From Armatimonadota bacterium (GTDB lineage Bacteria; Sysuimicrobiota; Sysuimicrobiia; Sysuimicrobiales; Humicultoraceae): 40,359 nucleotides of DNA. Made by a program: the position numbers and the translations under genes. The DNA is taken from the NCBI GenBank assembly GCA_031081585.1, contig JAVHLY010000001.1, positions 159,722-200,080 on the forward strand, read 5' to 3'. Of this stretch, positions 5,344 through 38,553 are shown in pieces; within the stretch, counting starts at the first letter, position 1, and each line of letters starts with the position of its first letter. The notes beneath the pieces are model-generated. The model was not told the DNA's origin. It searched no databases and saw only the letters and a program-made list of their open reading frames with translations.

Positions 5344-6609
5344 ATGCGGGTCATCGCCGATCTCCACCTCCACTCCAAGTACAGCCGCGCCACCAGTCGG
5401 GACATGGACATCGAGCACCTGGCCCGCTGGGGTCAGCTCAAGGGCCTCACCCTGCTCGGCACTGGGGACTTCACCCACCCAGTGTGGTTCCGGGAACTGC
5501 GCGCCCGGCTCACGCCCACCGGGCGGGGGCTCTTCACCGCCGGGGGGATGCACTTCGTCCTCTCGGTCGAGGTGGCGAACATCTACCCCCAGGGCGGGCG
5601 GCTGCGGAAGATCCACAACATCCTCCTCGCCCCCTCCTTCGAGACCGCCGAGCGGATCAACGCGGTGCTCGGACGCTTCGGCTCCCTCATCGCCGACGGG
5701 CGGCCCTCCCTCTCCCTGCCCTCGGACAAGCTGGTGGAGTACGTCATGGAGCTCGACCCCCAGTGCCTGGTCATCCCGGCCCACGTCTGGACCCCCTGGT
5801 TCTCGCTCTACGGGTCGAACTCGGGCTTTGACAGCCTGGAGGAGTGCTTCAAGGACCAGACCTGCCACATCGCCGCCGTGGAGACCGGGCTCAGCAGCGA
5901 TCCGCCGATGAACTGGCGCCTCTCGGAGCTCGACCGGGTGGCGCTGGTCAGCAACTCCGACGCCCACTCCCCGGCCAAGCTGGGACGGGAGGCCAACGTC
6001 TTCGAGATGGCCGAGCTGGACTACGGGGAGCTCGTGCGCATCCTGCGCCAGCGGGACACGCGGGGCTTCCTGTACACCATCGAGTTCTTCCCCGAGGAGG
6101 GGAAGTACCACTACGACGGCCACCGCAACTGCGGGCTGCGGCTCACCCCGAAGGAGACGCGGGCCCTCGGCGGAGTCTGTCCCACCTGCCGCCGGCCGCT
6201 CACCGTGGGGGTGATGCACCGCGTCGAACTGCTGGCCGACCGGGAGGAGGGCTTCGTCCCGGAGGGGGCCGTCCCGTACCGCAACCTGATCCCGCTGGAG
6301 GAGGTCATCGCCGAGGCCAGGGGCGCCCAGGTGGGGACCGGCGCTGTGCGCGAGGAGTACCTGACGCTGTGCCGGGAGTTCGGCGGGGAGTTCCGCGTGC
6401 TGCTGGACGTGCCGCTCGAGGAGGTGGCGCGCCACGCCTCCCCGCGCGTGGTGGAAGGGCTGCGCCGGATGCGGGAAGGGTGCGTGGTGATCAAGCCCGG
6501 CTACGACGGGGTCTTCGGGGAGATCCACCTCTTCGAGGAGGCGGAGGAGGTGCGGGCCGAGCTGCTCCCGGACCGGGAGGAGGCGGCCGCCCAGATCAGC
6601 CTCTTCTGA
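5344..6609 (+). CDS. Endonuclease Q-like PHP-domain DNA repair nuclease
   Basis: 421 residues. The N-terminal PHP domain has the metal motif DLHLHSKYS (D6, H8, H10), GTGDFTHP (D42, H45), VIPAHVWTPWFSLYG, and SNSDAHSPAKLGRE. A zinc-finger-like block follows: C263, C279-x-x-C282, H292 (CPTCRRPLTVGVMHR). The PHP plus treble-clef layout and the sequence ETGLSSDPPMNWRLS match endonuclease Q, which nicks DNA 5' of deaminated bases (uracil, hypoxanthine, xanthine) and abasic sites. EndoQ is best known from Thermococcales and some methanogens, with scattered bacterial copies. The C-terminal 60 residues are acidic and end in QISLF, resembling a PCNA/beta-clamp interacting tail (inference). The ATG is the first codon of the conserved domain; no strong ribosome site is visible. 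Confidence 0.88.
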   Translation: MRVIADLHLHSKYSRATSRDMDIEHLARWGQLKGLTLLGTGDFTHPVWFRELRARLTPTGRGLFTAGGMHFVLSVEVANIYPQGGRLRKIHNILLAPSFETAERINAVLGRFGSLIADGRPSLSLPSDKLVEYVMELDPQCLVIPAHVWTPWFSLYGSNSGFDSLEECFKDQTCHIAAVETGLSSDPPMNWRLSELDRVALVSNSDAHSPAKLGREANVFEMAELDYGELVRILRQRDTRGFLYTIEFFPEEGKYHYDGHRNCGLRLTPKETRALGGVCPTCRRPLTVGVMHRVELLADREEGFVPEGAVPYRNLIPLEEVIAEARGAQVGTGAVREEYLTLCREFGGEFRVLLDVPLEEVARHASPRVVEGLRRMREGCVVIKPGYDGVFGEIHLFEEAEEVRAELLPDREEAAAQISLF

Positions 6610-6621
6610 GCGCTCCGTGGC

Positions 6622-7818
6622 GTGGCCACCGTCACCCTCAAACCGGGCAGGGACGCCCGCCTGCTGGGCGGCCACCTGTGGGTCTACGCGGGCGAGGTGG
6701 CCCGGGTGGAGGGGTCCTACGAGCCCGGCGACGCGGTGGACGTGCGCGCCGCCGACGGCACCTTCCTCGGGCGCGGCTACCTGAACCCGCGCTCCACCAT
6801 CGCCGTGCGCCTGCTGACCCGGCGGCGGGAGGCCGTCGACGCAGCCTTTTTCCGCCGGCGCCTGGAGGCGGCACTGGCGCTGCGCGCGGGCGGGATCCTG
6901 CAGGCGGGGCCGGCACCGGCCAGCGACGCCTACCGGCTGGTCTACAGCGAGGGCGACTACCTCCCCGGGCTGGTCGTCGACCGGTACGGCGACGTGCTGG
7001 TGGTCCAGGTGCTCACCCTGGGGATGGCCCGCCAGCAGGCGTTGCTCGTCGACCTGCTGCGTGAGCTCACCGGGGTGCGGGCCATCTACGCCCGGAACGA
7101 CGCACCGGTGCGGGCGCGGGAGGGGTTGCCGCGCGAGCAGGGGTGGCTCTGGGGTGAGGGCCCCGAGGTGGCGGAGATTCACGAAGGGCCGGTGCGCTTC
7201 CGGGTGGCCCTCACTGGGCAGAAGACCGGGTTTTTCCTGGACCAGCGGGAGAACCGGGCGGTGGCCGCCGCCTACCTCTCCACGCTCGGGCCGGCCCCGG
7301 AGGCGCTCGACGCCTTCTGCTACACGGGGGCCTTCAGCATGCACCTGGCCCGCGCCGGGGCGCGGGTGCTCGGGATCGACATCGACCCCGACGCCGTCGC
7401 CGCCGCCGCCGCGCACGCACGCCTGAACGGCGTGGCGGACCGCTGCGCCTTCGAAGCCGTCAACGCCTTCGACCGCCTGCGCGCCCTGGTGCGGGAGGGG
7501 CGGCGTTTCGACCTGGTCGTCCTCGACCCCCCGGCCTTTGCCCGCACGCGCGCCGCCCTGCCCCGCGCGGCGGCCGGCTACAAGGAGATCAACCTGCGGG
7601 CGCTGCGCCTGCTGCGGCCCGGCGGGATCCTGGTGACCTGTTCCTGCTCGGCGGCGGTGAGCGAAGCCCACCTGCTGGCCCTTGTCGCCGAGGCGGCCTA
7701 CGACGCCCGCCGCGAGGTGCGCCTGCTGGAGTCGCGCACCCAGGCGCGCGACCATCCGGTCCACCCGGGGATGCCCGAGACGCGGTACCTGAAGTGCCTG
7801 ATCCTGCGCGCCTCCTGA
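6622..7818 (+). CDS. rlmI: RlmI-type 23S rRNA (cytosine-C5) methyltransferase
   Basis: 398 residues from GTG 6622, 12 bp after the endonuclease Q stop. The N-terminal PUA RNA-binding domain (about 1-75) starts with TLKPGRDARLLGGHLWVYAGE, a central EEHEE-type region follows, and the C-terminal Rossmann methyltransferase has the SAM motif DAFCYTGAFSMHLARAGA (230-247) with GIDID after it, and the catalytic VLDPPAF (300-306) and YKEINLRAL. A further Cys-rich strand (TCSCSA) completes the fold. E. coli RlmI makes m5C1962 in 23S rRNA; whether the exact site is the same cannot be read from sequence. The family covers close paralogues (RlmK, RlmL C-terminal halves), but PUA at the N-terminus favours RlmI. 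Confidence 0.87.
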   Translation: MATVTLKPGRDARLLGGHLWVYAGEVARVEGSYEPGDAVDVRAADGTFLGRGYLNPRSTIAVRLLTRRREAVDAAFFRRRLEAALALRAGGILQAGPAPASDAYRLVYSEGDYLPGLVVDRYGDVLVVQVLTLGMARQQALLVDLLRELTGVRAIYARNDAPVRAREGLPREQGWLWGEGPEVAEIHEGPVRFRVALTGQKTGFFLDQRENRAVAAAYLSTLGPAPEALDAFCYTGAFSMHLARAGARVLGIDIDPDAVAAAAAHARLNGVADRCAFEAVNAFDRLRALVREGRRFDLVVLDPPAFARTRAALPRAAAGYKEINLRALRLLRPGGILVTCSCSAAVSEAHLLALVAEAAYDARREVRLLESRTQARDHPVHPGMPETRYLKCLILRAS

Positions 7819-25886: not shown

Positions 25887-27491
25887 CTACCCGTTCCAGG
25901 CGCCGGGTATCCCCTCCTGCCCGGTCGCCACCGCCTCGCCGGGGGCGGGAGGGCGGGTTCGGCGCAGGGGGAGCTCTGGCAGCGCCAGCATCAGCGCGCC
26001 GGCGAGCAGCGTCAGCGGGATGGCCGAGGCGTAGACGCGCAGGATGCTCACGGCGAAGCCGCGGCGCACCGCCGCGCGCATGGCGGTCCCGTCCGGGCCG
26101 GGGGCGGCGGTCACCATGAGGCGGCCCCCCGCGCCCGATCCGCGCAGGGACGCGCGCAGCGCCGCGGGGTCGACGCTGCGCCGCACCCCCGGCGGCAACT
26201 GCGCTAGCGCTGGCCGCAGCGCGGCCTCCACCGCCTCCGTGAGGGTGGCGGAGAAGATCGCCCCGAAGACGGCTACGCCCACGACGCTGCCGATCTGCAT
26301 GAAGAACTGCCGGCTCGCCGTGGCCGTGCCCACCTGCCCGGGCGGCGCAGCGTTCTGCACCACCAGCGTCAGCAGCGGCATCGACGGGCCCAACCCCAGC
26401 CCCAGCACCACCATGCGCCAGACGACGCCGCCCTGCGTGACGTGCTCCCCCATGGTGGCCAGCAGCGCCATCCCGACGGTGGCCACCAGGTAGCCCGCGA
26501 CGATGACCCACTTGTACCGGCCGGTGCGCTGGACGACCTGCGCGGAGAGCAGCGCTCCCGTCACCACGGCGAGGGTCAGCGGGACCAGGGTGGAGCCCGC
26601 CGCCGTCGCCGAGACGCCGACGACGTTCACCATGAAGAGCGACAGGAAGAACAGCGCCCCGAAGAAGGCCGCCCCGGTGAGCAGGGAGGCCGCGGCGATC
26701 AGGGTCACGGTGCGGTTGCGGAAGAGCCCCAGCGGCAGGATCGGCGACGGGGCGCGGCGCTCCACGACCAGGAAGGCGGCCGCGGCCAGCCCGGAGGTGG
26801 CCAGCAGCGCCAGCGTGAAGGGGGCGTGCCAGGGGAAGAGCGTGCGGTCCAGGGTGAGCGCCAGCAGCAGCGGGACGACCGCGGCCAGCAGCAGGACCGT
26901 CCCCGGCCAGTCGATGGGTGCCCGCACGCCGCGGGCCATGGTCGGCATGCGCAGGAGCACGACGGCCAGCGCCAGCGCGCCCACCGGCACGTTCACGTAG
27001 AAGACCCAGCGCCAGCCGACGGTGTCGGTGAGCACGCCGCCCAGAGGGGGCCCGACCAGGCTGGCCAGGGCGAAGACGGCGCCGAAGAGGCCCTGGTAGC
27101 GCGGGCGCTCCGCCGGGGCGAAGAGGTCGGCGGGGATGATGAAGGCGGTCGAGGTGAGCGCCGCTGCGCCCACGCCCTGCAGGATGCGGAAGGCGATGAG
27201 CTGGAGCATCGACTGCGCCACCCCGCACAGGGCGGAGCCGGCCAGGAAGGTGACGATGCCGGCCACCAGGATGCGGCGCCGGCCGTGGAGGTCGGCGAGT
27301 CGGCCGTAGACCGGCACCATCGCCGTGCTGGCCAGCAGGTAGCCCGTGGAGACCCAGGCCAGCAGGTCCAGCCCGTGCAGGTCGGCCACGATGGCCGGCA
27401 GCGCGGTGGCGACGATGGTCTGGTCGAGGGCGGCCAGGAAGAGGCCGAGGAGGACGCCCACTAGGATGAGCAGCCGGTCCCGGGAGGTCAC
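25887..27491 (-). CDS. DHA2-family (EmrB/QacA-type) major facilitator exporter
   Basis: 534 residues from GTG 27491. About fourteen hydrophobic helices; motif D1-like LDQTIVATALPAIVADL in helix 1, motif A GRLADLHGRRRILVAG, motif C ALASLVGPPLGGVLTDTVGW, and WRWVFYVNVPVGALALAVV, all standard for proton-driven multidrug exporters of the 14-helix class. A loop between the last two helices contains a roughly 75-residue extracytoplasmic segment. The substrate cannot be read from sequence. A TATACT lies 8 bp before the GTG, implying a very short or absent leader. It may be co-transcribed with the VWA gene. Confidence 0.9.
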   Translation of the reverse strand: MTSRDRLLILVGVLLGLFLAALDQTIVATALPAIVADLHGLDLLAWVSTGYLLASTAMVPVYGRLADLHGRRRILVAGIVTFLAGSALCGVAQSMLQLIAFRILQGVGAAALTSTAFIIPADLFAPAERPRYQGLFGAVFALASLVGPPLGGVLTDTVGWRWVFYVNVPVGALALAVVLLRMPTMARGVRAPIDWPGTVLLLAAVVPLLLALTLDRTLFPWHAPFTLALLATSGLAAAAFLVVERRAPSPILPLGLFRNRTVTLIAAASLLTGAAFFGALFFLSLFMVNVVGVSATAAGSTLVPLTLAVVTGALLSAQVVQRTGRYKWVIVAGYLVATVGMALLATMGEHVTQGGVVWRMVVLGLGLGPSMPLLTLVVQNAAPPGQVGTATASRQFFMQIGSVVGVAVFGAIFSATLTEAVEAALRPALAQLPPGVRRSVDPAALRASLRGSGAGGRLMVTAAPGPDGTAMRAAVRRGFAVSILRVYASAIPLTLLAGALMLALPELPLRRTRPPAPGEAVATGQEGIPGAWNG

Positions 27492-27499
27492 GGGTCAGC

Positions 27500-27505
27500 A
27501 GTATA
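27500..27505 (-). promoter_or_regulatory. -10 element for the exporter gene, leaderless geometry
   Basis: On the minus strand TATACT (5 of 6 to TATAAT) ends 8 bp before GTG 27491, so transcription would start at or next to the start codon. No good -35 is visible at 16-18 bp. Confidence 0.4.
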
Positions 27506-27627
27506 CGCTCGTCCGCGCTCCCCGAGCACCACCGCCACCTCCTGCACCGATGTGTCACCTTCCCCACCTCCGCCCCCACCTCCAGGCCCGTCGAGGCCTC
27601 GGCACATCCGCCGTCTAGGGAGATGCA

Positions 27628-27729
27628 ATGAAGTCCCCGGGCAAGCCTGGTAGAGCGATCGTGGGCAAGCTGGGATCTTGGGGAGAAGGAATCCGCGGGG
27701 TCAGCCGCGAAGCATCAAAATTAGACTAA
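27628..27729 (+). CDS. Possible 33-residue small protein upstream of the XRE-cupin regulator
   Basis: ATG 27628 has AGGGAG about seven bases upstream and opens a 33-codon frame (MKSPGKPGRAIVGKLGSWGE...) ending at TAA 27727. It is basic and Gly-rich, with no recognisable domain. It falls in the 276-bp divergent gap between the exporter and regulator genes, and its stop lies inside the AT-rich operator region. Short frames arise easily in such DNA, so support is only the ribosome site and position. Confidence 0.2.
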   Translation: MKSPGKPGRAIVGKLGSWGEGIRGVSREASKLD

Positions 27730-27742
27730 AGGAAATTTTAAT
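27717..27742 (+). promoter_or_regulatory. AT-rich operator palindrome and -10 for the XRE-cupin regulator
   Basis: AAAATT (27717-27722) and AATTTT (27734-27739) form an inverted repeat with an 11-bp spacer, one of the few AT-rich patches in the window. TTTAAT at 27737-27742 (5 of 6 to TATAAT) overlaps the right arm, about 25 bp before the regulator ATG. A dimeric XRE regulator binding here would block its own promoter. Confidence 0.45.
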
Positions 27743-27767
27743 AAACCGAAAGACTCCCAGGCAGGCT

Positions 27768-28367
27768 ATGGGACACGCCGAGACATTGCTTGGACCGCCT
27801 GATGTGAGTGCCGCCCTTCACGAATTGGGCCTCCTCGTCCAAAAGGTCCGTGAGCAGCGCGGCCTGACCCTTGAGCAGCTCGCCGAGCGGTGCGGGGTGA
27901 GCGCCGCGACCCTGAGCCTCCTGGAGAGGGGCCAGGGCAATCCCTCCTTCGCCACCCTTCTGAGGGTGGCCACCGGCCTGCGGGTTCCCATCGCCACGTT
28001 CTTCCAGTCGGATGTCCGCCAGGACGGGATTGTCGTGCGGGCCGAGCACCGCAAGCGCCTGGTGGTCGGCCAGAGCGAAGGGCGGCGCTACGAGCTCCTC
28101 TCCCCCGACGTCACCGGCGCGATCGAAATGTTATGGGTGCGGCTTGAGCCGGGGGTGTGGACGGAGGACGAGAAGGTCGCACACGAGGGGGAGGAGTGCT
28201 TGGTGGTCCTGGACGGGCGACTGGAGGCGCATATCGGGCAGGGCCCACCCCACATCCTGGAGCCCGGGGATTCCATCTACGTGCGCAGCGAGATCCCCCA
28301 CTCCTACCGCAGCAGTGACGATGCCCCCGCGACCTTCGTGATCGCCATCACGCCGCCGTCGTTCTAG
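27768..28367 (+). CDS. XRE-family transcriptional regulator with C-terminal cupin sensor
   Basis: 199 residues from ATG 27768; a longer upstream frame is AT-rich and lies across the operator. Residues about 14-75 form an HTH_3 domain: LGLLVQKVREQRGLTLEQLA, SAATLSLLERGQGNPSFATL and LRVATGLRVPIATFF. Residues about 120-197 are a cupin barrel (VAHEGEECLVVLDGRLEAHI, LEPGDSIYVRSEIPHSYRS). XRE-cupin proteins control nearby catabolic or transport genes by binding a small ligand in the barrel. It stands at the head of the creatininase/ureohydrolase/BMP-transporter cluster, 40 bp before creatininase, so it is the likely regulator of that cluster and of itself. Confidence 0.9.
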   Translation: MGHAETLLGPPDVSAALHELGLLVQKVREQRGLTLEQLAERCGVSAATLSLLERGQGNPSFATLLRVATGLRVPIATFFQSDVRQDGIVVRAEHRKRLVVGQSEGRRYELLSPDVTGAIEMLWVRLEPGVWTEDEKVAHEGEECLVVLDGRLEAHIGQGPPHILEPGDSIYVRSEIPHSYRSSDDAPATFVIAITPPSF

Positions 28368-28407
28368 GGGTCGAGGGCTCCGCTCCCGGGGGTGGGCGGT
28401 GAGGACA

Positions 28408-29178
28408 ATGGGGCAGCCGGTAATGATGGACGAGCTCACCTGGGTGGAGTACCAGGAGCGGGTCCGGGCTGGCGCGCCGCTCTTCCTCGTGGCGGGCTCC
28501 ACAGAGCAGCACGGCCCTCACCTTCCTCTGGGAACGGACGTCTTCCAGGCCGTGGCCGTGGCGCGGGCGGCGGCAGAGCGGGTGGGAGGCATCGTCGCCC
28601 CGCCGCTGGCCTACGGGTACAAGAGCCAGCCCAAGAGCGGTGGCGGACAGCAGTTCCCCGGGACAACGAGCCTGGACGGGCAGACCCTCGTGGCGGTCGT
28701 GCGGGACCTCCTGAGGGAGTTCCTGCGACACGGCGTGCGCCGCATCGTCGTGGTCGACGGTCACTACGAGAACGCCATGTTCCTCACGGAGGGCATCGAC
28801 CTCGCCCTGCGGGAAACCGGTGTCTCCGACGCGAAGGCCGTCGTCGTCCACTGGTGGGAGCTCATCCCCCCCGGCACCGTCGATGCGATCTTCGCCGGGG
28901 AATTTCCTGGATGGGCCCTGGAGCATGCGGCGGTCGTGGAGACCTCGGTCACGGCGGCGGTGCGGCCGGACCTCGTGCGGTGGGATCGCCTCGTGGACGA
29001 TCGCGCGGACCGCCAGCTCCCCTACGAAATCTACCCACCGCCCTCCGACGTCGTGCCCCCCTCGGGGGTGCTCTCACCGGCGCGCCGGGCCAGCGCGGCG
29101 CACGGGCGTCGGATCGTCGAGGAGGTGGTGCAGGCTCTGGTGGAGATCGTGCGGACTGAGTTCGGGCTGGCAGGTTAG
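28408..29178 (+). CDS. Creatininase (creatinine amidohydrolase)
   Basis: 256 residues from ATG 28408; GTG 28399 would add three residues. Numbered from the GTG, the two-metal site is complete: E36, H38, D47, H122 and E124 (STEQHGPH, GTDVF, GHYENAMF). These sit two positions after the E34/H36/D45/H120/E122 set that I recall for Pseudomonas creatininase. The block LAYGYKSQPKSGGG followed by FPGTTSLDG, a WW pair near 152 and GWALEHAAVVETS are also those of true creatininases rather than of distant family members such as MftE or FAPy deformylases. It converts creatinine to creatine reversibly, in the cytosol. It is the first enzyme gene of the cluster and ends 12 bp before the first ureohydrolase gene. 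Confidence 0.85.
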   Translation: MGQPVMMDELTWVEYQERVRAGAPLFLVAGSTEQHGPHLPLGTDVFQAVAVARAAAERVGGIVAPPLAYGYKSQPKSGGGQQFPGTTSLDGQTLVAVVRDLLREFLRHGVRRIVVVDGHYENAMFLTEGIDLALRETGVSDAKAVVVHWWELIPPGTVDAIFAGEFPGWALEHAAVVETSVTAAVRPDLVRWDRLVDDRADRQLPYEIYPPPSDVVPPSGVLSPARRASAAHGRRIVEEVVQALVEIVRTEFGLAG

Positions 29179-29190
29179 GGAGGGAGGCGT

Positions 29191-30162
29191 ATGGGCGCGG
29201 AACGGCTCAACCTGCCCTTTACCGGGATCACCTCCTTTTGCAAGCTCCCGGTGCACACGGACCTGGACACGCTGGAGGCGGACGTGGCCATTCTGGGGGC
29301 CCCGTTCGACATGGGGACCCAGTACCGGTCCGGGACGCGCTTCGGCCCCCGGGCCATCCGGAATGCCTCTGCGATCTACGCGCTGCGCGGTGTGGGGTAC
29401 TACGATCACGAGTTCGACACCATCTTCCTGCAGGGGGTCCGGATCGTTGACTGTGGAGACGTCGACATGATTCACATGCGGCCCGAGGCGTGCCTGCAGA
29501 ACATCCGGGAGGCAGTGGAGAAGATCCTGGCCCGGGGTGCGCTGCCCGTCGTGCTGGGTGGAGATCACTCGGTCCCCATCCCCGTACTGCGGGCCTTTCG
29601 GGACCGGGGACCGCTCTACGTGATCCAGATTGACGCGCACCTGGACTTCGTGGACGAACGGTTCGGCGTGCGCGAGGGGCACGGGAACGTCATGCGCCGG
29701 GTGGCGGAGATGCCTCACGTGGAAGGCTTCGCACAGATCGGTATCCGCGGTCCGGGGAGCAGCGACCCGTCGGACTTCGCGGACGCGCGGCGCATGGGGA
29801 GCCTCATCATCGGTCCGCGGGAGATCCGCCGCCGGGGTGTCGACGGGGTACTGGCCCGCATCCCTGACGGAAAGCGGTACTACGTGACCATCGATATCGA
29901 CGCCTTCGACGCCGGTGTGGCCCCCGGGTCGGGCTCGCCGTCGGTGGGCGGCCTGGACTACTACGAGGTCACCGACCTCCTGCGGGGTGTGGCCGCCAAG
30001 GGCGACGTGGTGGGCTTCGACTTCGTGGAGGTGGCCCCGCAGTACGACCCCACGGAGGTCACCGCCCAGCTCGCTGCGCGGGTGATCCTGGACTTCCTGG
30101 GAGCGATCTTCTATGAGCGCACGCGGCGGGCCGTCCCGGCGGGGGTGCAGGAGGGGAGGTGA
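29191..30162 (+). CDS. Agmatinase/ureohydrolase family amidinohydrolase (copy 1)
   Basis: 323 residues from ATG 29191, behind GGGAGGGAGG. The binuclear manganese site is intact: H126 (GGDHS), D148, H150 and D152 (DAHLD), and D235 and D237 (TIDIDAFDAG), with APGSGSPSVGG after it. The family splits guanidino compounds into urea and an amine or amino acid (agmatinase, guanidinobutyrase, guanidinopropionase, guanidine hydrolase). Substrate cannot be assigned. Lying directly after creatininase, it could hydrolyse creatine or a related guanidino acid in place of the usual creatinase, which is missing here. Only about one third of its residues appear shared with the second copy downstream (estimate by eye). 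Confidence 0.88.
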   Translation: MGAERLNLPFTGITSFCKLPVHTDLDTLEADVAILGAPFDMGTQYRSGTRFGPRAIRNASAIYALRGVGYYDHEFDTIFLQGVRIVDCGDVDMIHMRPEACLQNIREAVEKILARGALPVVLGGDHSVPIPVLRAFRDRGPLYVIQIDAHLDFVDERFGVREGHGNVMRRVAEMPHVEGFAQIGIRGPGSSDPSDFADARRMGSLIIGPREIRRRGVDGVLARIPDGKRYYVTIDIDAFDAGVAPGSGSPSVGGLDYYEVTDLLRGVAAKGDVVGFDFVEVAPQYDPTEVTAQLAARVILDFLGAIFYERTRRAVPAGVQEGR

Positions 30163-30209
30163 GACCGCGCGCGGAGGCACCAACATCGGAAGAAGGGAGG
30201 AGTGTGCGC

Positions 30210-31181
30210 ATGGGGGACATGGCGAAGGGTCGAGTGGCTGCCCTGGTCGTGGCCGTGCTGCTGGGAGCGCTCGTGGGCACGGTGGCGGACGCGGGCACCC
30301 CACGCCTGCGGGTGGCGGCCGCCCTCCCAGGGATCATCACAGACAAGGCATGGAACCAGACCGGCTACGAGGGGCTAAAGATGATCGAGAAAGAACTGGG
30401 CGCGCAGATCGCCTACACGGAGCGCGTGGCCCAGCCCGACCAGGTCGAGGTCATGAGCGACTACGCCCGGCGAGGGTACGACCTCGTCTTTGGCCACGGC
30501 GGGGAGTTCGACTCTGCCGGGAAGCAGGTCGCCGCTCGGTTCCCGCGGACGAAGATCGTGATCAACAACGGCGTGTCCACGGCCCCTAACCTCGCCACGT
30601 CGCAGATCAACCACTTCCAGGTCAGCTTCCTGGCGGGAGTGGTGGCGGGACTGATGACCAAGACGAACAAGATCGCTGCCATCAGCGCCCAGAAGTTCCA
30701 GGCCATCGACGAGAGCATGATCGGTCTGGAGCAGGGGGCAAAGTACGTGAACCCACGGGTGCAGATGTTCACCTCCTACACGGGCGACTGGGACAACGTG
30801 GGCAAGGGCAAGGAGGCAGCCCTGGCGCACATCGCCCGCGGTGTGGACGTCCTGTACCCGCTGCTGGACCACGCTATGCTCGGAGTGATCGAAGCGGCGA
30901 AGGAGAAGAAGGTCTTCGTCATTGGGTACCCGCGGGACCAGCTCAGCCTGGCGCCCGAGACCGTCCTGACCTCGGCCATTGAGAACATTGCGGTGGCGAT
31001 GCTGGAGGTGGCCAAGCTCGTGGCCGCGGGCAAGTTCCAGGGGAAGGGGTATGTCTTCGGCATCGAGAACCCCGCCGCCGCCCGGCTGGGGCGGTACGGG
31101 GCCATGGTTCCCCAGCGCGTGCGAGATCGCGTGGAGGAGGTCAAGAAGCTGCTGCTAGCCGGTAAGATCCAGCGGAAGTGA
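30210..31181 (+). CDS. BMP-family ABC transporter substrate-binding protein
   Basis: 323 residues from ATG 30210 with GAAGGGAGGAG seven bases upstream. Signal peptide ALVVAVLLGALVGTVADA, with no lipobox Cys. The mature protein has the PnrA/BMP pattern: LPGIITDKAWNQTGYEGLKM, YDLVFGHGGEFDSAGKQVA, SFLAGVVAGLMTKTNKIAAI and NPRVQMFTSYTGDWDNVGKG, ending in helices. BMP proteins bind purine nucleosides, and some bind other small ligands such as autoinducer or amino-acid derivatives. In this cluster creatinine, creatine or a nucleobase-like ring is plausible (inference). It is separated from the ATPase gene by a strong hairpin, fitting higher expression of the binding protein. Confidence 0.92.
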   Translation: MGDMAKGRVAALVVAVLLGALVGTVADAGTPRLRVAAALPGIITDKAWNQTGYEGLKMIEKELGAQIAYTERVAQPDQVEVMSDYARRGYDLVFGHGGEFDSAGKQVAARFPRTKIVINNGVSTAPNLATSQINHFQVSFLAGVVAGLMTKTNKIAAISAQKFQAIDESMIGLEQGAKYVNPRVQMFTSYTGDWDNVGKGKEAALAHIARGVDVLYPLLDHAMLGVIEAAKEKKVFVIGYPRDQLSLAPETVLTSAIENIAVAMLEVAKLVAAGKFQGKGYVFGIENPAAARLGRYGAMVPQRVRDRVEEVKKLLLAGKIQRK

Positions 31182-31191
31182 GACCGGGACG

Positions 31192-31215
31192 GGGGGGCCT
31201 CGGCGGAGGCCCCCC
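31192..31215 (+). repeat. Strong intercistronic hairpin between binding-protein and ATPase genes
   Basis: A perfect 10-bp stem (31192-31201 with 31206-31215, GGGGGGCCTC / GAGGCCCCCC) closes a GGCG loop. No T run follows, so it is not a standard terminator. Placed just after the substrate-binding gene, it would stabilise the upstream mRNA end and lower expression of the ATPase and permeases. Confidence 0.5.
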
Positions 31216-31231
31216 GGGCGTACGGTGCGCC

Positions 31232-32761
31232 ATGGACACTGCCGCCGTCCTGCGGATGGAGGAGATCACCAAGCGGTTCGGGCCGATTGTGGCCAACGAC
31301 CGCGTCACGCTGGACGTCCGCGCAGGGACCGTACACGCGCTCCTCGGCGAGAACGGCGCGGGCAAGACGACGCTGATGAACGTCCTCTACGGGTTGTACC
31401 AGCCGGACTCGGGCCGCATCTACCTGCGGGGCGTCCCGGTCCGCTTCTCCTCGCCACGCGACGCCATCCGGCAGGGGATCGGAATGATCCACCAGCAGTT
31501 CATGCTCGTCCCCCAGCTGACGGTGGCCGAAAACGTCATGCTCGGTCTGCCGCCCCGGCGGGGTCCGTTCCTGGCCCGGGGGGCGGTGGAGACGGAGATC
31601 GCCACCCTGGCGCGGACGTACGGACTGGACGTCGACCCCCGGGCCGCTGTCTGGCAGCTCCCGGTAGGAGCACAGCAGAGGGTGGAGATCCTCAAGGCCA
31701 TCTACCGTGGAGCAGACCTCCTCATCCTGGACGAGCCCACCTCGGTGCTCACCCCGGCGGAGGCCGAGGCCCTCTTCGCCATCCTCCGGCAGTTCGTCCG
31801 GGAAGGGCGGTCCGTCATCTTTATCACCCACAAGCTCGAGGAAGTCATGCGTGTCAGCGACGAGGTGACCGTCCTCCGTCAGGGGCGGGTCGTCGGTACG
31901 GTTGCCACCCGCGAGACTAGCGCGGAGAGCCTGGCGCGGATGATGGTTGGGCGCGAGGTGGTCCTGCGACTGCAGAAGGACCCCGTCGTCATCGGGGAGG
32001 CCGTGCTGGAGGTCCGGTCCCTCCAGGCGCTGAACGACCGGGGCGTGGCGGCGCTCCGGGGAGTTTCCTTCCAGGTGCGGCGGGGCGAGATCTTCGGTGT
32101 CGCCGGGGTCGACGGGAACGGACAGACGGAGCTCGCGGAGGCGGTCGTGGGCCTGCGCCCCGTCCAGGGCGGGCGCATCCTCCTGCGGGGGCGGGACATC
32201 ACCGCTGTTCCCGTTCGCGAGCGTATCGCCTGCGGTATGACGTACATCCCCGCAGACCGGGCGCGCTTCGGGGTCATCGGCGACATGGCCGTCGCGGACA
32301 ATCTCGTCCTCAAGGTCGTACACCGACCTCCCTACTCCCGACGGACACTCCTCGACCGCGTTGCCATCGCCGCGCACGCCCGGGGACTTGTGAGCCGATT
32401 CGACATTCGCCTCGCCCATGTCTTCCAGCCGGTCCGCCACCTCTCGGGGGGGAATCAGCAGAAGGTGGTGCTCGCCCGGGAGGTGGGCGCGGACCCGGAC
32501 GTCCTTGTGGCCGTCCAGCCGACGCGCGGGCTGGACGTGGGGGCCGCGGAGTACGTCTTGCGAACGATTCTCGCGCAGCGGGCGCGGGGGACGGCGATCC
32601 TGTATATCTCCACAGAGCTGGACGAGTTGCTGACCGTGAGCGACCGGCTTGCGGTGCTCTTCAACGGGGAGATCATGGGCGTCGTCGATCCGCGGCTGGT
32701 CTCACTGAGGGAGATCAGCCTCATGATGACGGGGGCGTTGCGCCAGGCGGCGGCAGGATGA
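31232..32761 (+). CDS. BMP/nucleoside-type ABC transporter ATP-binding protein (two ABC domains)
   Basis: 509 residues from ATG 31232; a GTG at 31178 overlapping the preceding stop would translate through the hairpin and is unlikely. Domain 1 has Walker A GENGAGKTT, Q-loop IGMIHQQFMLVP, signature LPVGAQQRVEI, Walker B LLILDEPTSVLTP and ITHKLEEV. Domain 2 has a degenerate Walker A (GVDGNGQTE, no Lys), signature LSGGNQQKVVLAREV and VQPTRGLDVGA. This asymmetry is the rule for YufO/RbsA-type two-domain ATPases, so one site likely hydrolyses ATP. It overlaps the first permease gene by 4 bp (ATGA). Confidence 0.93.
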   Translation: MDTAAVLRMEEITKRFGPIVANDRVTLDVRAGTVHALLGENGAGKTTLMNVLYGLYQPDSGRIYLRGVPVRFSSPRDAIRQGIGMIHQQFMLVPQLTVAENVMLGLPPRRGPFLARGAVETEIATLARTYGLDVDPRAAVWQLPVGAQQRVEILKAIYRGADLLILDEPTSVLTPAEAEALFAILRQFVREGRSVIFITHKLEEVMRVSDEVTVLRQGRVVGTVATRETSAESLARMMVGREVVLRLQKDPVVIGEAVLEVRSLQALNDRGVAALRGVSFQVRRGEIFGVAGVDGNGQTELAEAVVGLRPVQGGRILLRGRDITAVPVRERIACGMTYIPADRARFGVIGDMAVADNLVLKVVHRPPYSRRTLLDRVAIAAHARGLVSRFDIRLAHVFQPVRHLSGGNQQKVVLAREVGADPDVLVAVQPTRGLDVGAAEYVLRTILAQRARGTAILYISTELDELLTVSDRLAVLFNGEIMGVVDPRLVSLREISLMMTGALRQAAAG

Positions 32762-33855
32762 GGGCGCGGGGCTGGGTGGCCAGCTCCCTCCCCCTCTGGG
32801 CAGTCTTCGGGGCCCTTCTGCTCGGCATGGTCCTCGTGGGGGTGGCCGGTGCGCACCCCCTGCGCGCCTACGGGGAACTGCTCCGGGGCGCGGTGGCCGA
32901 TGTCTTCGGGCTGTCCACGACCCTGGTGAAGGCGACCCCCCTGCTGTTTGCCGGCTTGGGTGTGGGCATCGCTCTGAGAGCGGGCCTCTTCAACATCGGG
33001 GCAGAGGGGCAAATCTACCTCGGCGGGCTCGCCGCCGCCCTGGTGGGCCTCTACCTCCAAGGCCTTCCCTCCCTCCTCCACGTCCTGCTGGCCCTCGCGG
33101 CCGGATTCCTGGCGGGAGCGGCGTGGGGGCTCGTGCCGGGGCTGCTGAAGGTCTTCCGTGGGGTCAACGAGGTCATCACCACCCTGCTCATGAACTATGT
33201 GGGGATCTTGCTGATCAGCCTCATAGTCAGCGGCCCCCTCATCGAACCGGGGGCCCCCTATCCGTATACGCGTCCCCTCGCCGACTCCGCACTCCTGCCG
33301 GTGATCATCCCCGGGACTGACGCGCACGCCGGGATCGTCCTCGCACTGGTGACGGCCCTGCTCCTGCACGCGCTTCTGGCGCGGACGACACTGGGATTCT
33401 ATCTGCGCAGTGTGGGGCTCAACCCGTCCGCCTCCGCCGCGGCGGGCATCAACGTTCGCGCTGTGCTCCTCGTGGCTATGGCGGGTGCGGGGGGGTTGGC
33501 CGGTGTGGCCGGTGCGGTCGAGGTGATTGGCCTGAAGCACCGCCTCTTCGAGAATTTCTCCCCCGGCTACGGGTACGATGCCGTGGTGGTCGCCTTCCTC
33601 AGCAACGGGCAGCCGCTGGGGGTCGTGGCTATGGGGGTCTTCTTTGGGGCCCTTCGGAGTGGGGCGAATATCATGCAGCGGAGCGTGGGAGTCCCCGTCG
33701 CCATCGTCTTCGCCATCCAGGGCCTCGCCGTGCTCTTCCTCGCTGCCAGCCTGGCGGTGCAGCGACGGTGGACCCTGCCCACCCTCGTGGCCGCTCCGCG
33801 GTCAGAGGCTCCCCGCCTCGCCGCGTCCATCGGTGCCAAGCATGAGTCCTCTTGA
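32758..33855 (+). CDS. BMP-type ABC transporter permease, subunit 1 (YufP-like)
   Basis: 365 residues, about ten hydrophobic helices. LLFAGLGVGIALRAGLFNIG and AEGQIYLGGLAAALVGLYL are the family's signature, and AAGINVRAVLLVAMAGAGGL plus GYGYDAVVVAFLSNGQPLG mark the BPD_transp_2 fold. It forms one half of the inner-membrane channel. Translation is coupled to the ATPase gene (ATGA) and the second permease gene begins inside its last 14 bp. An Arg/Ala-rich C-terminal tail is cytoplasmic. Confidence 0.9.
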   Translation: MRARGWVASSLPLWAVFGALLLGMVLVGVAGAHPLRAYGELLRGAVADVFGLSTTLVKATPLLFAGLGVGIALRAGLFNIGAEGQIYLGGLAAALVGLYLQGLPSLLHVLLALAAGFLAGAAWGLVPGLLKVFRGVNEVITTLLMNYVGILLISLIVSGPLIEPGAPYPYTRPLADSALLPVIIPGTDAHAGIVLALVTALLLHALLARTTLGFYLRSVGLNPSASAAAGINVRAVLLVAMAGAGGLAGVAGAVEVIGLKHRLFENFSPGYGYDAVVVAFLSNGQPLGVVAMGVFFGALRSGANIMQRSVGVPVAIVFAIQGLAVLFLAASLAVQRRWTLPTLVAAPRSEAPRLAASIGAKHESS

Positions 33856-34774
33856 GTACGTCCTCGTCCTCTCCTACCTCACGGCGACGGTCCGCCTGAC
33901 CACTCCCATCGGCCTGGCGGCCATGGGGGGCGTCCTTTCCGAGCGGTCGGGTGTCTTCAACATCGCCCTGGAAGGGATGATGCTCTTCGGGGCGCTGACG
34001 GGAGTCCTGGGTTCCCACTACTGGGGGAGTCCCTGGGCAGGGACTGCCGCCGCTGCGGGAGTCGGCGCGGTCCTCGGCCTCCTCCTCGCGTACCTGAGCG
34101 TCACCCTGGGGGCCAACCAGATCGTCTCCGGCGTGGCCCTTAACCTGTTCGCCTTCGGGTGTACGACTTTCCTGGCGCGGGTCCTGCTGCGCCCCGCCGG
34201 GATCGAACAGGTCCCGGCTTTCCAGCCCCTGGTGGTGCCCTACCTTGCCGACCTGCCCCTGATCGGACCCGTGCTCTTCCGGCAGACGCCCCTGGTCTAC
34301 GCGGCCCTGGTGTTGGCCCCCGCACTCACCCTCTTCCTCTTCCGGACCCCCTGGGGGCTGGGCCTTCGGGCGGTCGGGGAGCACCCACGGGCCGCCGACA
34401 CGGCGGGGCTGAAGGTGGCCCAGATGCGCTACGGTGCGGTCGTCGCCAGCGGGATGCTGGCCGGGACGGCGGGAGCCTTCCTCTCCCTGGGGCACCTCAA
34501 CCTGTTCACGGAGAACATGAGCGCAGGCCGGGGGTTCATCGCTCTGGCGGCGGTGATCTTCGGGAAGTGGCACCCACTGGGGGCCTTGGGTGCGGCCCTG
34601 CTCTTCGGCGCCGCCGACGCCTTTCAGCTCCTCATCCAGACCTACAACCTCGGGGTCCCCTACCAGGTGCCCGTTATGCTGCCGTACCTCTTGGCCCTCC
34701 TGGCCCTCACGGGTCTGGTGGGCCGTATGGCGCCGCCGGCGGCGGCAGGGACTCCCTACCGCGCCGAGGAGTGA
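33842..34774 (+). CDS. BMP-type ABC transporter permease, subunit 2 (YufQ-like)
   Basis: 310 residues from ATG 33842, overlapping permease 1 by 14 bp. Signature PIGLAAMGGVLSERSGVFNI then ALEGMMLFGAL, followed by VTLGANQIVSGVALNLFAFG, GLGLRAVGEHPRAADTAGLK and SAGRGFIALAAVIFGKWHPL, all typical of the smaller partner in nucleoside/BMP importers. About nine hydrophobic helices. With the binding protein, ATPase and first permease it completes an importer encoded in one operon. Confidence 0.9.
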   Translation: MSPLEYVLVLSYLTATVRLTTPIGLAAMGGVLSERSGVFNIALEGMMLFGALTGVLGSHYWGSPWAGTAAAAGVGAVLGLLLAYLSVTLGANQIVSGVALNLFAFGCTTFLARVLLRPAGIEQVPAFQPLVVPYLADLPLIGPVLFRQTPLVYAALVLAPALTLFLFRTPWGLGLRAVGEHPRAADTAGLKVAQMRYGAVVASGMLAGTAGAFLSLGHLNLFTENMSAGRGFIALAAVIFGKWHPLGALGAALLFGAADAFQLLIQTYNLGVPYQVPVMLPYLLALLALTGLVGRMAPPAAAGTPYRAEE

Positions 34775-34777
34775 GCC

Positions 34778-35812
34778 GTGGTCCCGGGAGCCACCACCGC
34801 GGACCGGATCGTGGCCCCCACCGATGCCGGACGCTCGCGGATGGGGTTGGGGTTCCTGGGCACACCCCCCGTACCCCGCATGGTGGAGCTGGCGCAGGCG
34901 GCGGAGGCCGCCGGATTCGCGTCCGTGTGGGTGGCCGAGACTCGGCTGCGCCGGGACGGCATCACCGCGGTCGCCGCCATCGCCGTGGCCACCCGCCGGG
35001 TATCGGTGGCGACGGGCCTGGTGAATGTCTACACGCGGGGGCCCGTTCTCCTGGCCCAGACGGCCGCCACCCTCGCTGAGCTCTCGGGCGGCCGGTTCGC
35101 CCTTGGGGTGGGAGCGGGATCTGCGGAGATCCTGCGGGCTCAGGGCATCGCCCCGGATCGGCCCTTCACCCGTTTGCGCGAGTACGTGGACGTCCTGCGG
35201 CCGCTGCTAGTGGGGCAGACCGTCGAGTACGAGGGACGGGTGGTCCGGGTGCGCGGGGCGCGACTGGAGGTGGTCCCGCCGGTGCCGCCTCCCCTGTACC
35301 TGGGCGTCACGGGGCCCCGCGGCCTGCGGCTGGCGGGACGGGTGGCGGACGGGGTGCTGCTGGACGCGTTCGTACCGATGGCGTACATCCAGCGGGCGGC
35401 GGAGGTCGTGCAGGCCGCGGCTGGCGAAACTGGGCGGGGGCGGGTAGACATCGCGGGGATCGTGATGACAGCCATCGCCGAGAATGGGGCCACCGCGCGG
35501 GAGAGGATGCGGGCCGCCATCGCCCGATACTACACGCTCTTCCCCACGATCGCGGCGGTCAGTGGGCTGAGCCCCGACGAGGTGGAGCGCCTCCAGCGTG
35601 TCACGCGGCAGGAGGGGCCTCGGGCCGGTGGCCGTTACCTCAGTGACGCGCTGGTGGATGCGGTCTGCCTGGCGGGGACGCCAGAGGAATGCCGACGGGG
35701 CCTCCAGCGCTTCCGGGCGGCTGGCCTGGACCTGCCTGTCCTCATGACGCCGGACGACCCCGCGGATCTGCTGGAGGCCTTTGGCCAGAATGCCACGTCC
35801 GGTGAGGGGTGA
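34778..35812 (+). CDS. LLM-class F420/flavin-dependent oxidoreductase (methylenetetrahydromethanopterin reductase-like)
   Basis: 344 residues from GTG 34778; an in-frame ATG at 34841 directly before GLGFLGTPPVPRMVELAQAA may be the true start. The bacterial-luciferase-like TIM barrel shows GFASVWVAETRLRRDGITAV, VATGLVNVYTRGPVLLAQTA, LAELSGGRFALGVGAGSAEI and PPLYLGVTGPRGLRLAGRVA, patterns of Mer-type F420 enzymes. Members reduce or oxidise diverse substrates with F420 or FMN, including ring-opening monooxygenations such as RutA. Lying between the importer and the amidohydrolase, it probably acts on the imported compound or a product; the reaction is unknown. Confidence 0.85.
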   Translation: MVPGATTADRIVAPTDAGRSRMGLGFLGTPPVPRMVELAQAAEAAGFASVWVAETRLRRDGITAVAAIAVATRRVSVATGLVNVYTRGPVLLAQTAATLAELSGGRFALGVGAGSAEILRAQGIAPDRPFTRLREYVDVLRPLLVGQTVEYEGRVVRVRGARLEVVPPVPPPLYLGVTGPRGLRLAGRVADGVLLDAFVPMAYIQRAAEVVQAAAGETGRGRVDIAGIVMTAIAENGATARERMRAAIARYYTLFPTIAAVSGLSPDEVERLQRVTRQEGPRAGGRYLSDALVDAVCLAGTPEECRRGLQRFRAAGLDLPVLMTPDDPADLLEAFGQNATSGEG

Positions 35813-35816
35813 GCGC

Positions 35817-37226
35817 ATGAACCGACCCGAACGGCTCGATCTGCTCCTCGCGGGGGGGACGGTCATCACCATGGACCCGGATCGCCGCATCCTGGAGCGC
35901 GGGGCTGTAGGCGTTCGGGGCTCCCGGATCGCCGTGGTGGGCCCGGCCGAGGATCTGGAGGGGGTCCCGGCGGCCCGTCGCCTCGACGTCTCCGGGAAGG
36001 TCGTCTTCCCCGGCTTGGTGAACACCCACACCCACCTCTTCCAGACACTGCTCAAGGGGCCGGCGGACGACCGCGTGCTGGAGGAGTGGTTCCGCGAGGT
36101 CGTGGCCCCCGCCGCCAGCGAGCTCACGGAAGAGGACTGCTATGTGGCCGCGGCGTTGGGGTGCGTCGAGGCCCTGCGCTCGGGCACGACGACGCTCAAG
36201 GACTTCATGTACGTGCACCCCCGCCCCCATCTTTCCGACGCGGTGATCCGCGCCATGGTGGAGACGGGGATCCGGGGAGTGTTCGTGCGCGGTTACATCG
36301 ATATGGGCGACGAGTACGGCATTCCGCGCGCCCTCATCCAGTCCACCGAGGACGTCCTGGCCGACTGTGAGCGGGTGGCCAAGCGTTACCACGGGGCCGC
36401 CGACGGGCGGATCACCGTGCGCTTCGGTCCGTGCATGATCTGGTCGTGCACCGCAGAGGGGTTGCGGGCCACGCAGCACCTGGCGGCCCACCTCGGCCTG
36501 GGACTGACGATGCACGTGGCGGAGACCCCCTTCTCCGTGCAGAACGCCATGGCCCGTTTCGGTGTGGGCGACCTCGCGGCCCTGGAGCGGTTGGGCGTGT
36601 TGGAGACCCCTACCCTGGCGGTGCACTGCGTCCACCTCACCCCCCGTGACCTGCGCATCCTCAAGGCGCGGGGTACTGCGGTCTCCCACAACCCCACGAG
36701 CAACATGTACCTGGCGGCCGGTGTGGCCCCGGTCCCTCAGATGCTCCTCGCCGGCATCCCCGTGGGTCTGGCCACCGATGGCCCGGCGAGCAACAACAAC
36801 CAGAACATGATCGAGGCTCTCAAGTTCGCGGCCCTCCTGCACAAGGTGCACACGGGCGACCCCACCGCGATCACCGTGGAGCAGGTCTTCGAGATGGCCA
36901 CACTGGGTGCGGCTCGTGCCCTGGGCCTGGAGGGCGAGGTGGGGTCCTTGGAGGTTGGCAAGCGGGCGGACATCGCCGTGGCCGACCTCTGCACGGCCAC
37001 GGCCTCCCCTGTCCACCACCCCGTCTCATCGCTGGTGTACTCCGCGATCGGTTCGGAAGTGGAGACGGTCATCATCGATGGCCGCCTAGTCATGGAGGGT
37101 GGTCGGATCCTCACCGTGGATGAGGGGGGCCTCCTCCGGGAGGCGCAGCGCGCCGCCCACGCCCTCCTGCAGCGTGCCCGCATTGCGCCGCCTGCGGCCC
37201 GCGCCTGGCGCGCCCTGGCCTTCTAG
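35817..37226 (+). CDS. TRZ/ATZ-type amidohydrolase (aminohydrolase of the MtaD/SsnA group)
   Basis: 469 residues from ATG 35817, after GAGGGGTGAG. An N-terminal beta sandwich (LLAGGTVITMDPDRRILERG) surrounds a TIM barrel with H71-x-H73 (NTHTHLFQTLLKG), H233 and E236 (MHVAET), H270/H273 (VHCVHLT) and D321 (TDGPASNNNQNM). This single-metal set, with Glu in the HxxE motif, marks deaminases and dechlorinases such as methylthioadenosine/adenosylhomocysteine deaminase, guanine or 8-oxoguanine deaminase and atrazine chlorohydrolase. A cyclic-amidine deamination is therefore likely, and creatinine, its hydantoin relatives or a purine are candidates. Its stop is 3 bp before the second ureohydrolase start. 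Confidence 0.88.
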   Translation: MNRPERLDLLLAGGTVITMDPDRRILERGAVGVRGSRIAVVGPAEDLEGVPAARRLDVSGKVVFPGLVNTHTHLFQTLLKGPADDRVLEEWFREVVAPAASELTEEDCYVAAALGCVEALRSGTTTLKDFMYVHPRPHLSDAVIRAMVETGIRGVFVRGYIDMGDEYGIPRALIQSTEDVLADCERVAKRYHGAADGRITVRFGPCMIWSCTAEGLRATQHLAAHLGLGLTMHVAETPFSVQNAMARFGVGDLAALERLGVLETPTLAVHCVHLTPRDLRILKARGTAVSHNPTSNMYLAAGVAPVPQMLLAGIPVGLATDGPASNNNQNMIEALKFAALLHKVHTGDPTAITVEQVFEMATLGAARALGLEGEVGSLEVGKRADIAVADLCTATASPVHHPVSSLVYSAIGSEVETVIIDGRLVMEGGRILTVDEGGLLREAQRAAHALLQRARIAPPAARAWRALAF

Positions 37227-37229
37227 GAC

Positions 37230-38186
37230 GTGGGCGCCGACCGCGACCTGCGCCCCCCGGACGCGCTGGAGAGCCCGCGCTTCGCAGGAATCCGCACCTT
37301 CATGCGCCTCCCCCACCGACCTGCGGCGGCAGGGGCTGACGTCGTCGTCCTGGGGATCCCCTTCGACACGGGCGCCACCTTCCGCGTGGGGGCGCGCTTT
37401 GGTCCTGTCGCGATCCGGGCCGCCTCAGTCCTCCTCAAGCCGTACTCGGTGGAGCAGGGGGTGGACGTCTTCGCCGCCTGCAGCGCCGTGGACCTCGGCG
37501 ACGTGGACGTCGTCCCGGGCTACCTGGACGACTCCTACGCGCGCATCCGGGAGGCGGTGGCCGCGGTGGTGGCCGCGGGCGCCGTCCCCCTGGCGCTGGG
37601 CGGGGATCACTCCATCACCCTTCCGGAGTTGCGCGCCCTGGCGGGGCACTGGGGCCCGCTGGCCCTGGTGCAGTTCGATGCCCACACCGACACCTGGGAC
37701 TCGTACTTTGGGCGAAAGTACACGCACGGCACGGTGGTACGGCGCGCGGTGGAGGAGGGCCTCATCCTCCCCCAACGCTCCACCCAGGTGGGGATTCGTG
37801 GACCTCTCTACCGCGCGGACGATGTCGAGGAGGCGCGCCGTCTGGGATTGGAGGTCATCCCGATGACCACCGTGCGGCGCCAGGGCGCGGAGGCGGTGGC
37901 TGAGGCGATCCGTCGGCGGACGGCGGATGCCCCGGCCTTCCTGTCGTTCGACGTCGACTTCCTGGATCCGGCTTTCGCCCCCGGGACGGGGACACCCCAG
38001 GTGGGCGGGGCTACCTCGGCGGAGGCGCTGCAGATCCTCCAGGGGTGCGCCGGCCTGACCATGGCCGGCGCTGACGTGGTGGAGGTCGTCCCTGCCTACG
38101 ACGTGGGGGAGATTACCGCTCTGCTGGCGGCGCAAGTTGTCTTCGAGTATCTGGCACTGGTTGGCCGGCAGCGGGTCGGGGGCTGA
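37230..38186 (+). CDS. Agmatinase/ureohydrolase family amidinohydrolase (copy 2)
   Basis: 318 residues from GTG 37230. Metal ligands H127 (GGDHS), D150, H152 and D154 (DAHTD), and D241 and D243 (SFDVDFLDPAFAPGTGTPQV) are intact, with the fuller DPxxAPGTGTP motif than copy 1. Cleaves a guanidino group to urea; guanidinobutyrase, guanidinopropionase and guanidine hydrolase are alternatives to agmatinase. The two copies flank the importer genes and differ clearly in their N-terminal and specificity loops (YSVEQGVDVFAACSAVDLG here), so they probably act on different substrates. It is followed after one base by the decayed deaminase-like frame. Confidence 0.88.
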   Translation: MGADRDLRPPDALESPRFAGIRTFMRLPHRPAAAGADVVVLGIPFDTGATFRVGARFGPVAIRAASVLLKPYSVEQGVDVFAACSAVDLGDVDVVPGYLDDSYARIREAVAAVVAAGAVPLALGGDHSITLPELRALAGHWGPLALVQFDAHTDTWDSYFGRKYTHGTVVRRAVEEGLILPQRSTQVGIRGPLYRADDVEEARRLGLEVIPMTTVRRQGAEAVAEAIRRRTADAPAFLSFDVDFLDPAFAPGTGTPQVGGATSAEALQILQGCAGLTMAGADVVEVVPAYDVGEITALLAAQVVFEYLALVGRQRVGG

Positions 38187-38187
38187 G

Positions 38188-38495
38188 GTGGTCCCGACCC
38201 ACGACCTCGTCATCCCGTCCTTCGTCAATGCTCACCTCCACCTGGACAAGGTGTGCACGCGGGATCTCGTGGCCGACGGAGCACAGGAGCAGAACGCCAG
38301 CGGGGCGATGGGGGGCGCCATGAGGCGATCGAGTGGGCCGCCGCCATCAAGGATCGCTACGCGGGAGAGTGCGTCTACGGAATGCGCGCCGGGCAGTGCG
38401 GGAGGAGTTGCGCCACGGCGTCACCCACGTCCTGGCGTTCGCCGATACAGACACCCGGCCGCGACTGGAAGCCGCGGCAGCGCTGGACAGAGTCA
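38188..38495 (+). pseudogene. Broken cytosine-deaminase/AtzC-like amidohydrolase
   Basis: GTG 38188, one base after the ureohydrolase stop, opens a frame reading LVIPSFVNAHLHLDKVCTRD, the HxH signature of CodA/AtzC-like amidohydrolases. The family continues in a second frame (HEAIEWAAAIKDRYAGECVY, from about 38319) and a third (NARRAVREELRHGVTHVLAF, ADTDTRPRLEAAAAL, from about 38381). Each step fits loss of one base. About 45 residues normally before the HxH and roughly 300 after are absent. The piece therefore lost both ends and carries two frameshifts. Cytosine deaminase, N-isopropylammelide hydrolase and creatinine deaminase are relatives. Confidence 0.65.
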
Positions 38496-38553
38496 GAGGG
38501 AGCAGGAAGAAAGACCCAATACCTGTGCAGCTCGGTTGGCAAAATCCCAGTTC

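Follow-up and report, generated by a model that had tools for sequence, protein, structure and literature searches.

In the classical route of creatinine breakdown, found in P. putida and Arthrobacter, creatininase acts together with an M24-fold creatinase and sarcosine oxidase. To our knowledge, the M24-fold creatinase is the only established enzyme for the conversion of creatine to sarcosine and urea. It is unrelated in fold to the ureohydrolases, and its substrate, creatine, is an N,N-disubstituted guanidine. Creatinine is also degraded in Corynebacterium glutamicum by a creatinine deaminase route composed of CodA, HyuAB and CshA, which creatininase can accompany (PMC8864220). Among the ureohydrolases, neither human guanidino acid hydrolase nor the comammox guanidinase hydrolyzes creatine (PMC9772407, PMC11410670). 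Dimethylguanidine hydrolase and metformin hydrolase, both members of the ureohydrolase family, convert N,N-dimethylguanidine to dimethylamine and urea (PMC11399263). Since these enzymes cut a disubstituted guanidine, as the cleavage of creatine would need, this reaction type lies within reach of the family.

Here we analyzed a 40,359-nucleotide stretch of DNA (the window) from Armatimonadota bacterium contig JAVHLY010000001.1, in which ten genes on the + strand occupy positions 27768-38186. Pfam and NCBIfam profiles, together with comparison to solved structures, provided the family assignments. In order, the genes encode an XRE-cupin regulator, a creatininase, a ureohydrolase (URE1), a BMP-type substrate-binding protein, an ABC transporter ATPase, two permeases, an LLM-class oxidoreductase, a TRZ/ATZ-type amidohydrolase (AMH) and a second ureohydrolase (URE2). 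The original prediction had placed these genes on one strand with short gaps, and our coordinates match it: the intergenic distances are 40, 12, 47, 50, -4, -14, 3, 4 and 3 bp, a range of -14 to 50 bp. The profiles also confirmed its family assignments for the two ureohydrolases, the deaminase-type amidohydrolase, the complete BMP importer and the XRE-cupin regulator. The window lies in the interior of a 244-kb contig, indicating that the operon is not a contig-edge artefact; the genome is 2.88 Mb and 96% complete. Creatininase is present in 3 of 43 genomes of the source phylum at E 1e-60, and we therefore rejected the idea that it is conserved phylum-wide. This rarity, combined with an operon GC content of 0.696 compared to 0.739 for the remaining window up to 27.5 kb, fits acquisition by transfer.

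The creatininase (28408..29178; Creatininase 4e-59), a member of the binuclear metal creatinine amidohydrolase family, scored 326 bits against the curated TIGR04448 equivalog model, well above the cut-off of 235, and its best match among solved structures was 1j2t (4.6e-72). As had been predicted, alignment to 1J2T revealed that all the metal ligands are kept (E34, H36, D45, H120 and E122 in P. putida numbering). The substrate-site residues W154, W174 and H178 are likewise kept in this alignment. Both tryptophans are also present in the three M24-creatinase-linked creatininases that we compared (L017, L018 and L020), the isochorismatase-linked creatininases compared have F174, and those from Deltaproteobacteria have I154 and thus lack W154. 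These features suggest that the window protein resembles a true creatininase and predict that it hydrolyzes creatinine. Membership in TIGR04448 does not guarantee this substrate, since an isochorismatase-type amidase is the partner of many creatininases that this model recognizes. In loci L034-L110 (mostly Pseudomonas) and L161-L175 (cyanobacteria), the TIGR04448 creatininase very often adjoins such an amidase, which is biuret-hydrolase-like and is accompanied by an SsuA-type importer and an SDR gene.

The original prediction held that the gene set matches neither known creatinine pathway, and this is supported. The operon lacks an M24 creatinase, and the best match in the genome has 32% identity over residues 157-396 of 404 and is not a convincing creatinase. 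Compared to the classical route, which is also encoded on the Rhizobiales plasmids L017 and L018, the window shares the creatininase equivalog family, a dedicated ABC importer and the proposed products sarcosine and urea. It differs in having a ureohydrolase in place of the M24 creatinase, a BMP-type rather than a PotD-type importer, and no sarcosine oxidase within the operon. Away from the operon, the same genome contains a gene resembling sarcosine/N-methyltryptophan oxidases (L121:1492-2664, G000 contig 5; 467 bits against a cut-off of 257), whose product could take sarcosine further. With the C. glutamicum route the window shares amidohydrolase-superfamily ring deaminases, namely AMH and a decayed CodA-like remnant. 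An intact CodA-HyuAB-CshA set is absent: the CodA-like gene is broken, and Pfam searches of the operon genes identified neither a hydantoinase nor an isochorismatase/N-carbamoylsarcosine amidase.

We judge it marginally probable that the operon imports and hydrolyzes a cyclic acylguanidine, most likely creatinine, and that a ureohydrolase replaces creatinase. The substrates and order of steps that we infer would be as follows. The BMP/ABC importer would bring the ring compound into the cell, and creatininase would open the ring to a guanidino acid, converting creatinine to creatine. URE1 would then split the guanidino acid into an amino acid and urea, yielding sarcosine from creatine; URE2 would perhaps do the same on a related guanidino acid. 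A ureohydrolase would thereby stand in for the unrelated M24-fold creatinase of Pseudomonas and Rhizobiales. AMH, acting as a ring deaminase, probably forms a side branch that was once completed by the now-decayed cytosine-deaminase-like gene. This reading retains the originally proposed creatinine or guanidino-compound operon with its own importer and refines what is new about it, which would be the ureohydrolase at the position where creatinase usually stands. Counting against a creatinine route are the inactivity of human guanidino acid hydrolase and the comammox guanidinase on creatine, the lack of W154 in the Deltaproteobacterial creatininases, the failure to find a urease in the window's genome, the lack of a clear place for the LLM oxidoreductase and AMH, and the occurrence of the importer without creatininase in genome G028.

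Conserved neighborhoods were sought by scanning genomes for creatininase, the synteny comparison proposed with the original prediction. It revealed creatininase, ureohydrolase and BMP importer together in Deltaproteobacteria, and creatininase-ureohydrolase pairs in cyanobacteria and Rhizobium. In three Deltaproteobacterial MAGs (L031, L032 and L067, of which L031 is recorded only as Pseudomonadota), URE1 (66-68% identity) is followed by the BMP protein, ATPase, two permeases and creatininase; in the L031 assembly, the reading frame of URE1 is broken close to its 5' end by an in-frame stop or a frameshift. We detected no second ureohydrolase in these operons, and AMH and the LLM gene are absent as well. 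In Rhizobium CIAT894, creatininase directly adjoins a GpuA-type ureohydrolase with a 0 bp gap. A ureohydrolase is adjacent or within ~4 kb at 7 of 19 cyanobacterial creatininase loci (L167, L168, L170, L173, L176, L177 and L178), and six of these seven ureohydrolases are of one orthologous type. An isochorismatase lies within a few kb at ~10 of the 19, and none has both partners. Thus, the linkage of creatininase with ureohydrolases is conserved across bacterial phyla. TIGR04448 scored over its cut-off in a single genome of 395, in the phylum of G045, and a model this rare makes it unlikely that the repeated trio arose by chance. In Roseateles XES5, BMP-ABC-URE1 occurs without creatininase. 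Elsewhere, creatininase is partnered by an M24 creatinase at L017, L018 and L020 and adjoined by a cytosine deaminase at L019; the creatininase-linked M24 enzymes from two proteobacterial classes share 67% identity. In genomes with the creatininase-ureohydrolase pairing, M24 matches reached at most 34% identity, and none was a convincing creatinase. We found no description of this pairing in the openly accessible literature searched, outside which most subscription papers fall.

In a tree of 38 ureohydrolases, URE1 was sister to the creatininase-linked ureohydrolases of Deltaproteobacteria (support 98/92; 67% identity), and URE2 was sister to a cyanobacterial ureohydrolase (L062; support 100/99) that has a creatininase 3 kb away. 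Linkage to creatininase was best accounted for by 4 changes on this tree, of which at least 3 are forced by well supported branches. In the creatininase tree, the partner switches between isochorismatase and ureohydrolase twice within cyanobacteria. The window creatininase falls outside the isochorismatase clade, with weak support for its exact placement. A bolder proposal, which we regard as possible but somewhat short of probable, is that at least three or four separate ureohydrolase lineages from several phyla, two of them in this operon, are arginase-fold creatine amidinohydrolases and that the BMP importer carries creatinine.

URE1 (29191..30162; Arginase 9e-80) and URE2 (37230..38186; Arginase 2e-93; GpuA 3nip 2e-82) both have complete GGDH, DAHxD and DxD metal motifs, and they share fold, metal motifs and family with GpuA/GbuA and the D. 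radiodurans agmatinase (1wog). Both exceed the cut-off of the broad agmatinase model TIGR01230, which also accepts other creatininase-linked ureohydrolases. We rejected the idea that either is the housekeeping agmatinase: it is a third ureohydrolase of this genome, on contig C13, that resembles those of all relatives searched, and URE1 and URE2 are distinct from this third enzyme. In GbuA, the active site is capped by R72 from a neighboring subunit, which may contact the carboxylate of the substrate (PMC9772407). Position 72 is alanine in URE1 and lysine in URE2, whereas position 161 is arginine in URE1 and tyrosine in URE2. R161 and K72 would therefore make a cation available in both pockets, which would suit guanidino acids. 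URE1 is a proposed creatine/guanidino-acid hydrolase and URE2 is guanidinopropionase/guanidinobutyrase-like. In favor of the proposed route, a ureohydrolase of the URE1 clade in the relative G011 (L024, contig 475, 14591-16783) has as neighbors a DAO-family amino acid oxidase and a gene for a peptide-type ABC importer.

The presence of two ureohydrolase genes in one operon raises the idea that URE1 and URE2 form a single heteromeric hydrolase like metformin hydrolase, a heteromer of two ureohydrolases (PMC11399263). In that enzyme, metal ligands reside only in the alpha subunits and the beta subunits are metal-less; URE1 and URE2, by contrast, each have the full set. Moreover, their genes are ~7 kb apart, the proteins belong to distant clades, and the Deltaproteobacterial operons have URE1 without a detected partner. 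The intact ligands and distant clades led us to reject this arrangement as highly improbable. A link between metformin hydrolase and creatininase is not described in the passages of PMC11399263 consulted.

The importer is complete and consists of the BMP protein (30210..31181; Bmp 6e-57), which aligns with AtzT, Med and Lbp, an ATPase with two ABC domains (31232..32761; ABC_tran in two stretches, 9e-47), and permeases 1 (32758..33855; BPD_transp_2 1e-38) and 2 (33842..34774; BPD_transp_2 7e-41). Guanine is a ligand of AtzT, which is the BMP protein of a related importer (PMC6834077). The pADP-1 system to which it belongs combines the BMP-type importer AtzTUVW with Atz amidohydrolases, as BMP-type importers and TRZ/ATZ amidohydrolases are combined in the window and in G028, but it serves an s-triazine pathway with neither creatininase nor ureohydrolase alongside. 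The guanine binding of AtzT supports an alternative in which the same two-step logic is applied to another ring (glycocyamidine/guanidinoacetate, guanine, a pterin or another 2-amino-oxo heterocycle) that AMH would deaminate. The aromatic sandwich of AtzT is kept in the window's BMP protein, with Y45 and W194 corresponding to W and W. However, S97, E165 and N220, with which AtzT contacts guanine, are not conserved, nor are its guanine/hydroxyatrazine contacts, and the active site of the window creatininase matches that of a true creatininase, both tryptophans included. Most other members of the group to which the window's BMP protein belongs share its HGGE motif and an Asp. Creatinine is attacked by a cytosine-deaminase-type creatinine deaminase (PMC6742649, PMC8864220) as well as by creatininase. 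That both kinds of enzyme found with this importer are known from other systems to attack creatinine is an argument for creatinine as its ligand, if not a proof, and we consider this assignment plausible.

AMH (35817..37226; Amidohydro_1 2e-72), probably a ring deaminase, also bears on the other-ring alternative. Its best PDB match is AtzA (4v1x, 7e-82) and it is close to deaminase models such as 8-oxoguanine deaminase, both consistent with a ring other than creatinine. An orthologue with 74-75% identity adjoins the orthologous importer in G028, where three ring-deaminase-like enzymes accompany the importer without creatininase. The LLM-class oxidoreductase (34778..35812; Bac_luciferase 7e-63) fits the other-ring alternative insofar as LLM oxygenases such as RutA open pyrimidine rings elsewhere. 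Its match to RutA is weak, and its best PDB matches are F420-dependent methylene-H4MPT reductases. The original description of this protein as an F420-type oxidoreductase thus holds for the family, which is Mer-like; dependence on F420 is probable, as CofE is present in the genome, indicating F420 synthesis. Taking both sides together, we regard hydrolysis of a different ring as unlikely, if the most serious rival to creatinine.

Directly 3' of URE2 we identified an eleventh gene that is decayed and was absent from the original list. This cytosine-deaminase-like (AtzC/CodA-type) remnant (38203..38497, + strand; tblastn against L201:16168-17397, E 3e-16) consists of fragments in different frames at 38203-38310 (50% over 36 aa) and 38381-38497 (69% over 39 aa). 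In G028, a relative from the same taxonomic order, the importer (65-71%) and AMH (74%) precede an intact cytosine-deaminase-like gene (L201:16168-17397) and a second amidohydrolase; a search of this contig found neither creatininase nor ureohydrolase. With related importer operons carrying cytosine-deaminase-like genes, a deaminase branch probably once belonged to the window's operon. The fragments and their intact counterpart further suggest that this importer may first have belonged to a deaminase-type operon, the creatininase, ureohydrolases and LLM gene being added or kept as the deaminase decayed. Overall, G028 contig 73 (L201, L202) carries the orthologous importer followed by AtzA-like, cytosine-deaminase-like and 8-oxoguanine-deaminase-like amidohydrolases, and a divergent second set that includes a nitrilase-like gene; these genes look like a ring multi-deaminase cascade.

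The G028 arrangement of BMP-ABC-AMH-deaminase is also what would be expected if the window's operon were a composite serving no single pathway. In that case, an importer and ring deaminase for nucleobase or nucleoside salvage would have received creatininase and guanidino-acid hydrolases as insertions with independent nitrogen-scavenging roles. The lower operon GC content and the separate occurrence of the importer, AMH and the ureohydrolases in other genomes are consistent with this idea. In opposition to it, Deltaproteobacteria keep URE1, importer and creatininase side by side in the absence of AMH and LLM, and creatininase accompanies the BMP importer without a ureohydrolase in L033 and L088. 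We consider a composite operon distinctly improbable. In L033, ~3 kb upstream of the creatininase-BMP importer operon, an ORF at 6047-7192 appears by eye to be amidinotransferase-like, with no NCBIfam match at 1e-10. On a Pantoea plasmid (L118), a BMP importer-cupin-isochorismatase-amidohydrolase cluster contains an amidohydrolase with 49% identity to AMH, suggesting that an amidase can act on the ring product of AMH. A creatininase-family gene near this cluster was dropped as support, as it lies beyond a LysR gene among sugar-type genes.

Returning to creatinine as the favored substrate, the creatininase-ureohydrolase pairing points to a possible alternative route of creatinine breakdown and to a candidate second, independently evolved creatinase. 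If this is true, many genes annotated as agmatinase would need correction, creatinine users would be more numerous, with cyanobacteria, Deltaproteobacteria and the source phylum among them, and alternative enzymes for creatinine assays might become available.

The XRE-cupin protein (27768..28367; HTH_3 5e-15, Cupin_2 4e-15) has a PuuR-like layout, scores 63 bits against the PuuR model, far under its cut-off of 211, and is probably the regulator of the operon. A search for operators 5' of its gene yielded weak inverted repeats only. The intergenic region at 27480-27800, between a divergent MFS gene and the regulator, contains a short AT-rich part and is a possible promoter/operator region.
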